From a virus, in the IMG/VR virus record IMGVR_UViG_3300032245_000136, positions 1 to 33,370 of that record: a stretch of DNA of 33,370 nt. One strand, given 5' to 3'. The notes beneath the pieces are model-generated. The model ran no database searches, was not told where the DNA came from, and saw only the letters and a list, made by a program, of their open reading frames with translations. Within the stretch, counting starts at the first letter, position 1; each line of letters begins with the position of its first letter. Positions 28,708 to 32,929 of the stretch are shown piece after piece. The translations under genes and the position numbers were made by a program.

Positions 28708-29040
28708 TTAATCATATTCTAACGGTAAACCAATGTCTCTAGGCCATAGGTCTAGCATCGTCATCGTGAAAACCGTCTTTTTGTGAGCCTCAATCCACAT
28801 TTGTTTTCTTTCCTCTTTGGAGAGGTGATTTCCTTGATCTAGTTCTTGATGACAGTCTTGACAGAGTGCAGCGGTATAAATGTCGCTTGCTTTGATGCCC
28901 CGACCCTTACCGTGTTCTGACCAATTGGAATGCGCCGCTTGAACCGACCCATCCCGTCCGCAGTGTTGACAAAGCAAAGATGCCACATTCTTCAAGTGGG
29001 TCTTGCTCCGGTAATAGTTGTACTTGGGGAACATCATCAT
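28708..29040 (-). CDS. HNH-like nuclease-fold protein (DUF968/DUF1364-like)
   Basis: This 110-residue protein has CQHCG (C24, C27), an AAHSN block with H37, and a second CQDCH pair (C60, C63, H64), the zinc-finger and His arrangement of treble-clef HNH-type phage proteins related to DUF1364/DUF968. These are found in the recombination clusters of lambdoid phages, and some are thought to be nucleases. The start at 29040 has AAGGA seven bases upstream; a TTG at 29085 would add 15 residues. Catalysis is not certain because a full HNH triad is not obvious. Confidence 0.65.
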   Translation of the reverse strand: MMMFPKYNYYRSKTHLKNVASLLCQHCGRDGSVQAAHSNWSEHGKGRGIKASDIYTAALCQDCHQELDQGNHLSKEERKQMWIEAHKKTVFTMTMLDLWPRDIGLPLEYD

Positions 29041-29128
29041 ATATGTGTCCTTGTTGGTGCTCCCATGTGGCAGGGTCGGTAGCAACTGAATAAAAGCACC
29101 ACGGGGCCAATCCGTTTCACCAACAAAA

Positions 29129-29533
29129 TTAGTTTACATCAATTTCCTTTTGTGCGGCCCATGCCAACAACCACTCGATGAACTCTGACCCGTCTTCAAT
29201 TGAGAACTTGTGAGACTGTAGCCCCAACTGCACGACCCGTTCGCCATCAAGTGAGGGGGCAACCTTCCCAATCTTGCGATTTGTCTCATGTGCCCATTGG
29301 TCGATTAATAATCGCTTCCAATCGTCAGCAGTCCATTTTGAACCCACAGCCTTCATCGCAATATGTATCTTGTGAATAATCCCGTGAAACATATCGTTTT
29401 GTTCAGCACTGCGCCGAGATTGTTTTACCTCAATCCTTAATTTCTGTCCCGCCATCAATGTGGCTTTGATCTGAGGCCACAAGTCTTTTAAAACTGCGTG
29501 TCCTTGTTGGGGGTTATATAAAGTGTAGTTCAT
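29129..29533 (-). CDS. ninB: NinB-like recombination protein
   Basis: This 134-residue protein has the core of the NinB (Orf) family: KLRIEVKQSRRSAEQNDMFH (31-50), WTADDWKRLLIDQW (67-80), then a helical C-terminal half with SIEDGSEFIEWLLAWA. Lambda Orf/NinB helps RecA or annealing proteins load during RecBCD-independent recombination. Here it is next to RusA and the PAPS-reductase-like gene. The 88-base gap to the next gene holds no further ORF I can support. Confidence 0.85.
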   Translation of the reverse strand: MNYTLYNPQQGHAVLKDLWPQIKATLMAGQKLRIEVKQSRRSAEQNDMFHGIIHKIHIAMKAVGSKWTADDWKRLLIDQWAHETNRKIGKVAPSLDGERVVQLGLQSHKFSIEDGSEFIEWLLAWAAQKEIDVN

Positions 29534-30361
29534 TTAGTCCCCGCAGAAACAAGCAATTGATTCATCTTCAAACAGATTTTGTTGGTTAGATGCAAAGTCT
29601 GCCATTTCCCGATAAGAGGGATGGTCAACACGAAACAAATTACCGTTGCCCGTGTGGTTTGGTGTTATTTCTTTCACAATACTTTCCATTTTTGCCCACC
29701 ATACCGTTTTTTCCGGATACATTCTTGATATGTTTGTTTTTTTATCAAGACTTTTCAAAAAGCATAGGTCACAATTCCCGAGCAAACTTTCATCTTTAAA
29801 AATACCCAAATTTAATTTGAATGGCTGATTAAGCCAAAATTCGTTAATTGTTTTTTTGGTAACCCCCGCCGTGAACAGTGGAATCTTATGCTTTGCCATC
29901 TTTGCAGCGCGGCGCGGTTCATCAGCCCTAATGCCAACAAAATCATCATTGTCCATTTCCGAGTGTTTCCACCCCAAACTGCGTAGGTATTTGTGGATTA
30001 CTCTGATTTTCAAAACTCCCGTACACCACCGCTGCGCGGGGTTGGGCAGTTTCTTGTAATGTCTGATTAATGCCTCAAATGGTTCGCCATTTCGGGACGC
30101 TGTTTCATAATTGACAATTTTGAACTTTGGTTCTTCTGCACAATACTCTAACCAAACAATTGGCACATTCCAATTTGTTTCGCAGTCATGTACAAATTTT
30201 AATGTAGCCTCATCTTCTTTACCAGTATTGGCAAAACAAACAACTGCATCATCCGGAAGTTTTCCATTATGTGCGTCAAGAACTCGCCACAGCATATAGG
30301 CACTTGTGCGCCCACCGCTAAAGCTAATGCAAGTTTGGTCAATGATTTTAAAAGGGTTCAT
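29534..30361 (-). CDS. PAPS-reductase/DndC-like PP-loop enzyme
   Basis: This 275-residue protein has the PP-loop SGGRTS (15-20) of the adenylyl-sulfate/PAPS-reductase family, IRADEPRR (144-151), and cysteines C113, C197, C200, C271 and C273. Spaced cysteines and a C-terminal ACFCGD resemble DndC-like members that carry an iron-sulfur cluster and take part in DNA phosphorothioation, but no DndA/B/D/E partner is seen. It could instead be an assimilatory sulfate-metabolism gene. Position between RusA and NinB points to DNA metabolism. It is coupled to RusA by ATGA. Confidence 0.8.
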   Translation of the reverse strand: MNPFKIIDQTCISFSGGRTSAYMLWRVLDAHNGKLPDDAVVCFANTGKEDEATLKFVHDCETNWNVPIVWLEYCAEEPKFKIVNYETASRNGEPFEALIRHYKKLPNPAQRWCTGVLKIRVIHKYLRSLGWKHSEMDNDDFVGIRADEPRRAAKMAKHKIPLFTAGVTKKTINEFWLNQPFKLNLGIFKDESLLGNCDLCFLKSLDKKTNISRMYPEKTVWWAKMESIVKEITPNHTGNGNLFRVDHPSYREMADFASNQQNLFEDESIACFCGD

Positions 30362-30774
30362 ATTTCTCTCACCATAATATCTATTCCCTCTGTTGCGGAA
30401 TAAACCTTTGTCAAATGCAAATCCACCACTTGCTTGTCATCAAGATACACGATGCCATTCATACCATCCAATATCGCTTTGACGATGTTGTCAATGTCGG
30501 GCTTTTTGGTTGGGCGTTCGGTTCCTTCAATACAAGCCTTTTGGCGCGTTTTTGAGTACGATGGCGGTACGGGTATTCTTATGTGAAGATAAGCCGCTAC
30601 AGCCCCGTTTAAAGGGCTTGTAGACCCCATCGCTTGCTTGGCATAGGTTTGGATTGACTTCTCGTAGGTCAAAGTCTTGGAATCGGTGTAAGTTTTGACG
30701 AAGGTTCCTTGTCGGGCGAAGCGGGGTCTGCCCTTTCCGGCGACTTGTGGGACAGTGAAATGGATTTGAATCAT
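30358..30774 (-). CDS. rusA: RusA-type Holliday-junction resolvase
   Basis: This 138-residue protein has the RusA signature: GKGRPRFARQG near the start (13-23), RTKKPD-type block with KPDIDNIVKAILDGMNG (91-107), and YLDDKQVVDLHL (110-121). D93, D95, K99 and D112/D113 correspond to the acidic and Lys residues of E. coli RusA's active site. It cuts Holliday junctions and would clean up branched DNA before packaging. It overlaps both neighbouring genes. Confidence 0.92.
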   Translation of the reverse strand: MIQIHFTVPQVAGKGRPRFARQGTFVKTYTDSKTLTYEKSIQTYAKQAMGSTSPLNGAVAAYLHIRIPVPPSYSKTRQKACIEGTERPTKKPDIDNIVKAILDGMNGIVYLDDKQVVDLHLTKVYSATEGIDIMVREI

Positions 30775-31241
30775 TTTAATTGTGTCGCGTTGCTCATGTC
30801 GATATATGCGTTTGATCGGATTACTTCACCACCGTTCACATTTCTTTTTGTTGTTGTTGGCAAGATGGTTATCTCCGGAACATATCCGATGTGATTTGCT
30901 ATTTGCTGAACAAGAAGAATATTAGACTGAGTTAAATATAAGAATCCGGTGAACGGGACACATAATGCTTTTGCGATTTGCTTTCCTTTTTCAAGTTTAT
31001 CGAATGTCACTAACCATTGATAGTTATATCGTCCGATAAATTCTTCAATGGTCATGTCTCTGCATTTGGTTTCGACCACCCGCATGATTTGATTTTGTTT
31101 AATCAAGATCGCGTCAATGTCTGCGGGTTTGTCTTTTGGTGTTTCGCAATACTCATAATCCGGAAAGTGTTTAGCGAATATCTCCATCGCTCGGTGTTCC
31201 GCTTTCAGCGATTCGCGTCCTCTCGGCGTGTTTATGTCCAT
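30771..31241 (-). CDS. PD-(D/E)XK-like putative nuclease
   Basis: This 156-residue protein contains MDINTPRGRESLKAEHRAME at the start, then KPADIDAILI (38-47) and VVETKC (55-60), giving a D41/D43 ... E57-x-K59 pattern of PD-(D/E)XK nucleases. A NYQWLVTFDKLEKG block and beta-rich C-terminal half follow. The fold resembles small restriction-like or Holliday-type nucleases, without a clear subfamily. The start at 31241 overlaps the upstream stop (TGATG). A 71-base overlap with another small gene (31171-31383) is unusual. Confidence 0.65.
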   Translation of the reverse strand: MDINTPRGRESLKAEHRAMEIFAKHFPDYEYCETPKDKPADIDAILIKQNQIMRVVETKCRDMTIEEFIGRYNYQWLVTFDKLEKGKQIAKALCVPFTGFLYLTQSNILLVQQIANHIGYVPEITILPTTTKRNVNGGEVIRSNAYIDMSNATQLK

Positions 31242-31383
31242 CAATGCGCTCCTTCACCATACGGGGTAATTCTTTCCACATATCGTTCGAATCGCGTAAC
31301 TCCTTCACCCGATGGCGTGTGTACTCTGTCCACCCCTTCGTCATCGCTAGTTTGGCATAGTGATCGGCTAACTCGTTGAGCAT
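31171..31383 (-). CDS. Small protein overlapping two neighbours in other frames
   Basis: This 70-residue helical, basic protein starts MLNELADHYAKLAMTKGWTE and ends in a charged region. GGGGGA lies five bases before the ATG. Proteins beginning in this way (MLNELA..YA.LA...GW..Y...RVKEL) are familiar to me from betaproteobacterial phages. It overlaps the 31241-31486 gene by 143 bases and the PD-(D/E)XK gene by 71 bases, each in another frame. Both overlaps are well beyond the usual few bases here, so one of the three may be shorter than drawn. Confidence 0.6.
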   Translation of the reverse strand: MLNELADHYAKLAMTKGWTEYTRHRVKELRDSNDMWKELPRMVKERIDGHKHAERTRIAESGTPSDGDIR

Positions 31384-31486
31384 TCAAATCCCCCGTGATG
31401 GTCAATGCTTTGTTGATTCGCCATGTGGGTATTGCAAACCCCAACTTGACGAAGTTGAGCAGTGCGTGTGCTTGTTCTTTAGTCAT
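31241..31486 (-). CDS. Small hypothetical protein, partly overlapped
   Basis: This 81-residue ORF starts MTKEQAHALLNFVKLGFAIP and contains TWRINKALTITGDLNAQ; this first half looks like a real small phage protein. The second half lies wholly opposite another open frame (31171-31383) and looks less natural. The ATG overlaps the stop of the cytosine methyltransferase by eight bases and directly follows the stop of the alternative-frame ORF, and its own stop overlaps the next start as TGATG. Those two couplings favour it being translated to the end. Confidence 0.5.
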   Translation of the reverse strand: MTKEQAHALLNFVKLGFAIPTWRINKALTITGDLNAQRVSRSLCQTSDDEGVDRVHTPSGEGVTRFERYVERITPYGEGAH

Positions 31487-32219
31487 TCAAGATTCTCCAT
31501 GCGGTTGCTGCACAAATTGGGACTTGTCCATTTCCAATGGCTTTAACTCTGTCCACCCGGTCGGCCATCCCATCATCGACTCTGATAAGACCGGATGGAA
31601 CCACCCCCATCCTCCATTCTTTGAAGGGGGATGCCCAATCTGAACCAATTTGTTCGGCAGATCGAAATTTCTTTTTAGGTGATATTCCTTGTTCTTCGTT
31701 ATTTTTTTGTAATCCGAAGTCAAAGGTGTTGGAAGCCACGAGCCAGATTCTGTTCCTTTGATGTGGTGCGCCAATGTCTCCTGCTCCCAACACTCCCCAT
31801 CTCGCATCAAACCCCATTGAGGCCAAGTCTCCGAGAACTCGTCCAAGCCCCCGAGAAGTGAGCATTGGTGAGTTCTCCACGAATGCGTATCGAGGTCGTA
31901 CTTCGTGAATGATGCGCGCCATTTGTCCCCACATTCCGCTTCGTTCCCCGTCAATTCCTGCACCTTTTCCGACTGAACTAATGTCTTGGCAGGGAAATCC
32001 TCCCGATACAACATCAACAATTCCTCTCCACGGTTTTCCATCAAAGGTTTGAACATCATCCCAAATCGGGAAAGGCGGGAGACTTCCATCATTTTGTCGG
32101 GCGAGCAGTACGCTTGCGGGGTAGGGTTCCCATTCAACGGCGCAGACTGTTCGCCATCCGAGAAGTTTTCCCCCAAGTATTCCTCCACCAGCACCCGCGA
32201 ATAAAGCCAACTCATTCAT
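31479..32219 (-). CDS. C5-cytosine DNA methyltransferase
   Basis: This 246-residue protein has the ordered motifs of C5 methyltransferases: FAGAGGG (7-13), the catalytic GGFPCQDIS with C77 (73-81), VENSP (114-118), PHQRNRIW (152-159) and GNGQVP (229-234). The target-recognition region (about 160-225) is short. It methylates cytosine in an unknown sequence and, with no nuclease partner adjacent, probably guards the phage against host restriction. AAGGTG lies just upstream of ATG 32219. A second open frame covers virtually the entire gene. Confidence 0.93.
   Translation of the reverse strand: MNELALFAGAGGGILGGKLLGWRTVCAVEWEPYPASVLLARQNDGSLPPFPIWDDVQTFDGKPWRGIVDVVSGGFPCQDISSVGKGAGIDGERSGMWGQMARIIHEVRPRYAFVENSPMLTSRGLGRVLGDLASMGFDARWGVLGAGDIGAPHQRNRIWLVASNTFDFGLQKNNEEQGISPKKKFRSAEQIGSDWASPFKEWRMGVVPSGLIRVDDGMADRVDRVKAIGNGQVPICAATAWRILND
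31487..32215 (-). CDS. Second open frame across the whole cytosine methyltransferase gene
   Basis: This 242-residue ORF starts four bases after the methyltransferase ATG (ATGAATGA) and ends eight bases before its stop, so both frames have start and stop almost together. The single AAGGTG site is at workable distance from either ATG. It starts MSWLYSRVLVEEYLGENFSD, includes LNGNPTPQAYC and RGEELLMLYREDFPAKT, then SWRTHQCSLLGGLDEFSETW, and ends in MGWPTGWTELKPLEMDK. I recall many database proteins with this opening and ending from phage methylase loci. It may be genuine dual coding or a recurrent artefact of constrained methyltransferase codons. No function is known. Confidence 0.45.
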   Translation of the reverse strand: MSWLYSRVLVEEYLGENFSDGEQSAPLNGNPTPQAYCSPDKMMEVSRLSRFGMMFKPLMENRGEELLMLYREDFPAKTLVQSEKVQELTGNEAECGDKWRASFTKYDLDTHSWRTHQCSLLGGLDEFSETWPQWGLMRDGECWEQETLAHHIKGTESGSWLPTPLTSDYKKITKNKEYHLKRNFDLPNKLVQIGHPPSKNGGWGWFHPVLSESMMGWPTGWTELKPLEMDKSQFVQQPHGES

Positions 32220-32929
32220 ATCACCTTGCCTTTCAATGCTTGCATTATTTGGGCGCGTATCTCAGCCGGAGGTGGGCCAGTTCTCTGCCTATCCTCGTCC
32301 AGCTTGACAAGTGCGGGGTCTCGCTCTGTCTTGCTCGGCACTGTGACTTTGGCAATGTCCGCAAATGTCGGCTTTGGAGCCACCCACTCAGCTTTAAAGG
32401 CTTGCCAACCGCGAACACAACATTCGGACAATGCTTGCTCCATCGACCAACCGGCTTTGTCCGCTTCGGACTTGATGCCATCAATGGCCCGTTGCGTGAT
32501 GGGAGCCTTCTTTGCTTTGCGGAGGGTTTTGAAGTCTTGCCAAACAGAATCAGAAACGCCGGTAGGCGTTGCCACGATAGTGGCTTTCTGTCTCTCCTCT
32601 TTCTCTGTCTCTCTCTCTGTCTCTAGACTATCACTTTGATATTGCTCTGATATCGCGTTGATATCATCTTGTATCATCCAATGAGACAGCTTGGAAACGC
32701 ATACTTCGGTATCCTTTTCTGCCATTCTTAGTCTAAATGCAAGTTGTTTGACGGGTGGAATCTTTCCATCCTCCTCACTTGCTATCAGCCACAGCATGAC
32801 CAGCACTTTGGCGGCTTTGGGGTCGAGTTCATGCCATTCGATATCGTCCAACAGATCACGATACAGCTTAACCCAAGGTGGCTTGCGGTCTTTGAAATGT
32901 TGGAACTTAGACCAATTTTTGATTTCCAT
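32216..32929 (-). CDS. Phage replication initiator / helicase-loader-like protein
   Basis: This 237-residue protein begins MEIKNWSKFQHFKDRKPPWV and contains KLYRDLLDDIEWHELDPKAA, a winged-helix-like N-terminal domain typical of phage replisome organisers. A charged linker (about 95-120) leads to a C-terminal DnaT-like segment with VWQDFKTLRKAKKAPITQRA and GWSMEQALSECCVRGWQAFK. It probably binds the phage origin and recruits host DnaB, since no helicase or primase is encoded. The start at 32929 is chosen because the longer reading runs through the structured RNA region. The stop overlaps the methyltransferase start. Confidence 0.75.
   Translation of the reverse strand: MEIKNWSKFQHFKDRKPPWVKLYRDLLDDIEWHELDPKAAKVLVMLWLIASEEDGKIPPVKQLAFRLRMAEKDTEVCVSKLSHWMIQDDINAISEQYQSDSLETERETEKEERQKATIVATPTGVSDSVWQDFKTLRKAKKAPITQRAIDGIKSEADKAGWSMEQALSECCVRGWQAFKAEWVAPKPTFADIAKVTVPSKTERDPALVKLDEDRQRTGPPPAEIRAQIMQALKGKVI

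Follow-up and report, generated by a model that had tools for sequence, protein, structure and literature searches.

A conserved second reading frame within phage cytosine methyltransferase genes as the putative recognition subunit of a split enzyme

The virus record analyzed here (33.4 kb, referred to as the window) carries a C5 cytosine methyltransferase (MTase) gene whose coding sequence is overlapped by a second open reading frame, and we propose, with a probability of roughly 0.6, that the C5 MTase is split in the manner of M.EcoHK31I and that this frame encodes its nested beta subunit, which holds motif IX and the recognition cassettes. Both frames are under selection, both starts are kept, and the cassettes are selected in the second frame. 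We infer that beta is translated, that it associates with the product of the MTase frame, and that its cassettes recognize the target.

In the proposed mechanism, the large subunit alpha, read in the MTase frame, would contribute motifs I-VIII and motif X, and beta would begin at its own ATG 4 nt downstream, sharing the ribosome-binding site of alpha. Beta would bring the missing small domain, in which a motif IX-like block comes after at least one exchangeable [WL]PTP... cassette. The cassettes would recognize the target sequence, and alpha and beta would associate into an active, sequence-specific enzyme that marks phage DNA.

Results

Two overlapping frames in one gene

The original prediction, made from the letters of the window, described a 242-codon second frame lying over a C5 MTase gene, and the coordinates of the two ORFs agree with it (Table 1). 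Both start within AAGGTGATATGAATGAG, with the two ATGs 4 nt apart behind AAGGTG, and their stop codons are 8 nt apart; these features, and the position of the second stop before the next ATG, are as had been described. The recurrent ending that the prediction noted for other phage loci is real, being found as ...LNPTWVEWLMGWPLGWTDLKP... in homologues. At 31479-31489, the second-frame stop TGA directly abuts the ATG (31486) of the next gene (31241-31486), suggesting that translation of this gene is coupled to that of the second frame and not to that of the MTase. Further along the same strand, the stretch 28708-30774 has matches to RusA, NinB, and DUF968, as well as a weak PAPS-reductase match below the cut-off, and is a recombination/replication region of the lambdoid type.

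Table 1. Features of the dual-coded MTase locus, in window coordinates
Feature	Coordinates	Strand	Remarks
C5 cytosine MTase ORF (frame 0, "alpha")	31479..32219	-	246 aa; motifs I-VIII and X, predicted to lack a folded TRD/motif IX
Second-frame ORF, +1 relative to MTase, proposed "beta" subunit	31487..32215	-	242 aa; phrog_1008 match
AAGGTG, Shine-Dalgarno (SD)-like site	32222..32227	-	Spacing fits second-frame ATG better than MTase ATG
MTase catalytic core, residues 1-165, motifs I-VIII	31725..32219	-	MTase frame dominant, second frame constrained too (AF2 and codon-position rates)
Second-frame conserved core FTKYDLDTHSWRT..FSETWPQWGLMRDGECWE, residues 103-144	31784..31909	-	Kept across window, steno, myco, and cyano clades (alignments A1, A3, A4)
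Second-frame variable cassette WLPTPLTSDYKK..., residues 160-204	31604..31738	-	Placed by alignment
Second-frame terminal block WFHPVLSESMMGWPTGWTE, residues 205-223, motif IX-like	31547..31603	-	Invariant M215, P218, W221
MTase residues 182-229, predicted disordered	31533..31676	-	Overlaps cassette end and motif IX-like block; AF2 pLDDT <50
MTase motif X (IGNGQVPICAATAWRILND)	31482..31538	-	AF2 pLDDT 89-96 from residue 230; conserved G229, N230

The MTase frame is predicted to lack a folded recognition domain

C5 MTases require a small domain, which contains motif IX and the TRD (PMC3404938). The MTase frame matches phrog_363 and Pfam PF00145 (4.9e-29, 102 bits, cut-off 22), the latter only over positions 4-181 of the 324-position profile, and M.HhaI is matched only over residues 4-163. 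The Pfam, PDB, and profile matches all end after motif VIII, and the whole frame has 246 aa versus 327 for M.HhaI. Catalytic motifs I-VIII (FAGAGGG, PCQ, ENS...) and motif X (GNGQVP) are present, with invariant columns. In the AF2 model, which has fold matches to M.HhaI and M.HaeIII, ten-residue blocks within residues 1-170 have pLDDT values of 81-98 and the helix of motif X is confident, with pLDDT below 50 for residues 182-229 between them. An in-frame TRD and motif IX are absent from the MTase frame, judging by the end of the Pfam match and by these low-confidence residues; as modeled, the frame is without a folded recognition domain.

An open second frame is far beyond chance across homologues

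The chance of about 1 in 100,000 first given for the open run overstates the case for a single gene: when the codons of the window MTase itself were shuffled among synonymous positions, the +1 frame had a mean of 4.9 stops, and 0.2% of shuffles had none. Across homologues, the evidence that the open +1 frame is far beyond chance is overwhelming. From codon 2 to motif VIII, the frame was stop-free in 84 of 85 non-redundant homologues, while codon shuffling predicted 1.4, and after motif VIII it was stop-free in 78 of the 85 versus 9.9 expected. A set less strict than that of 85 had 100 of 114 non-redundant homologues without a stop in the counted stretch, where 0.1 were expected. About half of the homologue loci were fetched via the MTase frame and not via the second frame. 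No depletion was seen in the +2 frame of the 85 homologues, which had stops as expected, or in the +1 frame of 30 canonical full-length MTases from bacterial genomes (15.2 stops observed versus 15.1 expected). In the cyanophage-type clade, stops are absent only between MTase codons about 61-280 and are at expectation on both sides.

A second frame that seems conserved only through the conserved MTase code, a mechanical shadow with no second protein, would account for part of the recurrence, such as phrog_1008 matching only over MTase genes. However, shuffling with the MTase protein and its codon usage held constant fails to give open frames at the observed rate, the effect is missing from canonical MTases and from the +2 frame, conservation is higher for second-frame residues than for the overlying residues of the MTase, and the cassettes drift at the second-frame wobble (see below). 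We consider a shadow very improbable, and as the only explanation it was rejected on the codon shuffles, the control genes, the +2 frame, and the canonical MTases.

Starts, residues, and synonymous sites of the second frame

The second-frame ATG is kept in all 125 distinct loci, while the MTase codon at -4 in the same loci is ATG in 70, TTA in 17, GTG in 16, TTG in 12, CTT in 8, and CTA and TTT in 1 each. An in-frame MTase start is present at -4 or no more than nine codons upstream in 85 of 85 non-redundant MTases, and the distance from the SD-like core to the second-frame ATG is 5-9 nt in 73 of 84 homologues. In the eight loci with CTT (L016, L038, L040, L079, L083, L106, L119, and L142), MSWLIS[KQN]AL is found upstream in the second frame (translation read in L016, L038, and L083), as if the MSWL.S.AL motif of the N-terminus had arisen anew about nine codons upstream, in a shifted register. 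Candidate second-frame ATGs of the cyanophage-type clade, near codon 47-52, are without an SD, and this was counted against the nested-subunit reading.

Reduced synonymous change, which the original prediction had named as a check, is found at conserved fourfold codons, where third-base identity is 0.67 versus 0.43 in neighboring genes, both at 70-80% protein identity. Among 83 homologues, several second-frame residues are fixed where MTase residues vary: P at MT133 in 83 of 83, M at MT216 in 82 (MTase D in only 66%), and W at MT218 in 79 (MTase V in only 51%). The idea of a recurrent out-of-frame partner of the methylase is thus borne out by selection of its own, seen in stops, fixed residues, codon positions, and cassettes. 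Judged from the alignments, the second frame is a real gene under its own selection.

The second frame takes over after motif VIII

Between sequences aligned at 60-75% nucleotide identity, positions 1, 2, and 3 of the MTase codons had mismatch rates of 0.244, 0.163, and 0.429 before motif VIII and of 0.343, 0.157, and 0.269 after it. The most variable site after motif VIII in diverged pairs is MTase codon position 1, which is the second-frame wobble; the higher mismatch at this position in the variable region therefore indicates that the second frame is the more constrained one there. By these rates, the MTase frame is dominant before motif VIII and a passenger after it.

Two kinds of element are conserved in the second frame after motif VIII, namely, [WL]PTP cassettes, which are modular, and at the end an LNP..VEWLMG.P.GWT block. 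Four of the five cassette types have within-clade identities of 68-87% in the second frame versus 32-57% in the MTase frame (0.68 versus 0.36 for the TTMD type, 0.71 versus 0.32 for the AHNAKE type, and 0.82 versus 0.55 for the NDSKN type). Picking the cassettes by second-frame patterns biases their identity at the anchor, a bias from which the codon-position mismatch rates are free. The direction is the same across clades, and cassette mismatches cluster at the second-frame wobble. The same cassettes are shared by clades with no more than about 40% identity between their MTases.

The second-frame protein and its motif IX-like end

The second frame matches phrog_1008 at 5.2e-20, a match also found in 28 of 28 members, and has no Pfam (E<=1) or NCBIfam match. 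An HNH or other known domain was considered and rejected, with no Pfam match in the window protein and no HNH in 28 relatives. A profile search of solved structures with the second frame returned a chance match only, and AF2 gave a poor model for the protein (pLDDT 58, pTM 0.28), with no fold match in Foldseek. Using hhalign against canonical MTases, only the LNP..VEWLMG.P.GWT block aligned, on motif IX (L[TS].RE.ARL.GFP), a short and weak similarity that is non-significant alone (probability 0.5, E 0.11). A motif IX HMM reached a maximum of 9.5 bits in second-frame proteins versus 1.2 in reversed or shuffled ones, and its best match was at the MGxP site in 77 of 122.

Distribution of the second frame

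Stenotrophomonas-, mycobacteriophage-, and cyanophage-type clades, which were fetched by their MTases, have the same second-frame core, cassettes, and end block. Across about 980 bacterial genomes from three phyla, every second-frame homologue with good support lies over an MTase gene, again in the +1 frame, but a shadow family would give the same confinement, and the count alone is no proof of coding. These genomes comprise 398 proteobacterial ones scanned with phrog_1008 and 586 of two other phyla scanned with profile A4; the sequences in alignment A3 diverged too far for it to serve in such a scan. Searching for the second-frame protein without the MTase, as had been suggested, gave no convincing standalone copy in the about 980 genomes or among the phage and plasmid records listed. 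L399 was rejected as such a copy because it is a fragment of the C-terminus and the C-terminal sequence of an MTase still overlaps it, and L408 was unconvincing, as the match, although free of an MTase, is short and GC-rich.

Three roles had been offered for the second frame, namely, inhibitor, specificity factor, and anti-defense protein. A specificity factor fits best, given that the MTase has no predicted folded TRD and that the cassettes and motif IX-like end lie in the second frame; no positive evidence was found for an inhibitor or anti-defense role. The coding evidence is equally compatible with an independent regulator, inhibitor, or anti-defense factor, translated and conserved, that shares the gene with the methylase and acts outside the enzyme, and the link of the second frame to methylation is sequence-based, with a poor AF2 fold. 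We regard this alternative as unlikely, since no clear copy exists apart from an MTase gene in the genomes and records searched, and the cassettes sit exactly at the missing recognition domain, with the end block at the place of motif IX, just before motif X.

Broken frames

Loci with a broken second frame and an intact MTase, which according to the original prediction would refute it, amount to one non-redundant case (L065/L067, with a second-frame stop at codon 143). The MTase frame is broken by a stop in L151 and ends early in L009/L010, with the second frame intact in both. On a Gallionella contig (L169:4001-4984, the same as L180), a small indel near a GGG run exchanges the frames in both directions; a pseudogene, an assembly error, or phase variation is possible there.

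The Gallionella locus shows that an indel can exchange the two frames, which counts in favor of programmed frameshifting that would fuse the N-terminal part of the MTase to the second-frame cassettes and end block in one long methylase, in which motifs I-VIII, cassettes, and motif IX would share one chain. Such a mechanism seems improbable to us: the second frame of the window clade is stop-free from its own conserved ATG, and that of the cyanophage-type clade is stop-free for about 100 codons before motif VIII, neither of which is needed for a late shift. To reach motif X, which is in frame 0, the ribosome would have to shift a second time, and the fully conserved beta ATG (125/125) has good SD spacing.

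Discussion

A nested beta subunit is proposed because alpha appears to have no recognition domain of its own, the end of beta is motif IX-like, and M.EcoHK31I provides a precedent; on this anatomy, the weak motif IX similarity, and the precedent, a subunit role is the most likely one for the second frame. The small ORF of M.EcoHK31I lies inside the large gene, in another frame. Its working enzyme is formed by a large polypeptide with motifs I-VIII and X and a small polypeptide with motif IX (Lee, Kam & Shaw 1995, cited in PMC3404938). The large frame of the window likewise has motifs I-VIII and X and no motif IX. In M.EcoHK31I, however, the TRD is predicted on the large subunit, whereas here the large frame is predicted to be disordered at that place and the cassettes are selected in the small frame. 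As the TRD is not on the large frame, we propose that the window locus works like M.EcoHK31I and do not file it as a member. M.EcoHK31I also belongs to a restriction-modification system, whereas the genes described here are those of phages and prophages, with a second frame that spans the whole gene.

M.AquI alpha/beta is a naturally split C5 MTase whose small subunit holds part of the variable region together with motifs IX and X (PMC3404938). Unlike in M.AquI, motif X here is in the large frame, and whole-gene frame overlap of the M.AquI genes is not reported in PMC3404938. The mycobacteriophage ShiLan has an out-of-frame HNH endonuclease in its methylase (PMC11855218). It resembles our locus in that the methylase gene of a phage encodes a further protein out of frame; however, that case is a sporadic HNH homing insertion, whereas here a whole-gene partner without HNH similarity is fixed in a clade. 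The multispecific C5 MTases of Bacillus phages hold several recognition units that can be exchanged and that lie between motifs VIII and IX, but these units are in the frame and chain of the MTase itself. Among cellular-type enzymes, it is rare for two conserved proteins to be encoded over their full length on the same strand, and we found no report in the literature of the present MTase family as dual coding.

If the nested beta subunit is real, one stretch of DNA would encode a catalytic subunit and a swappable recognition subunit, a natural modular recognition system for cytosine methylation. Tentatively, and with slightly less than even confidence, we extend this to a large class of phage C5 methylases that may have no recognition domain of their own and may obtain specificity from a nested-frame subunit of exchangeable cassettes that recombine among phages. 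The dual-coded MTase would also be a clear test case for the evolution of overlapping genes.

Annotation of one frame is usual, and a likely essential enzyme subunit is then absent from the genome annotation; the enzyme may be destroyed if the annotated MTase alone is cloned, as in a version recoded with synonymous codons. In PHROGs v4, phrog_1008 (second frame) and phrog_363 (MTase frame) are both labeled "DNA methyltransferase," with entries that are silent on being two frames of one gene. In Pseudomonas phage VB_PaD_phPA-G (L170:1501-2229), the depositors left out the MTase frame and annotated the second one, as a hypothetical protein; in several other records, it is the second frame that is omitted and the MTase frame that is annotated.

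Dual coding recurs in phages and prophages whose hosts include proteobacteria, mycobacteria, and cyanobacteria, among others; E. coli prophages are part of this range. In a prophage region of the E. coli PT62 chromosome, two dual-coded C5 MTases lie within 4 kb, one of the QLNPAHSRWLMG clade (L418:39-1025) and one of the window clade (L418:2997-3734), both annotated only as DNA cytosine methyltransferase. The former belongs, together with L386, L387, L404, L405, and L410, to a further MTase clade whose second frame ends in ...GGQLNPAHSRWLMG.PPEWDACA... and is open over the matched stretch.
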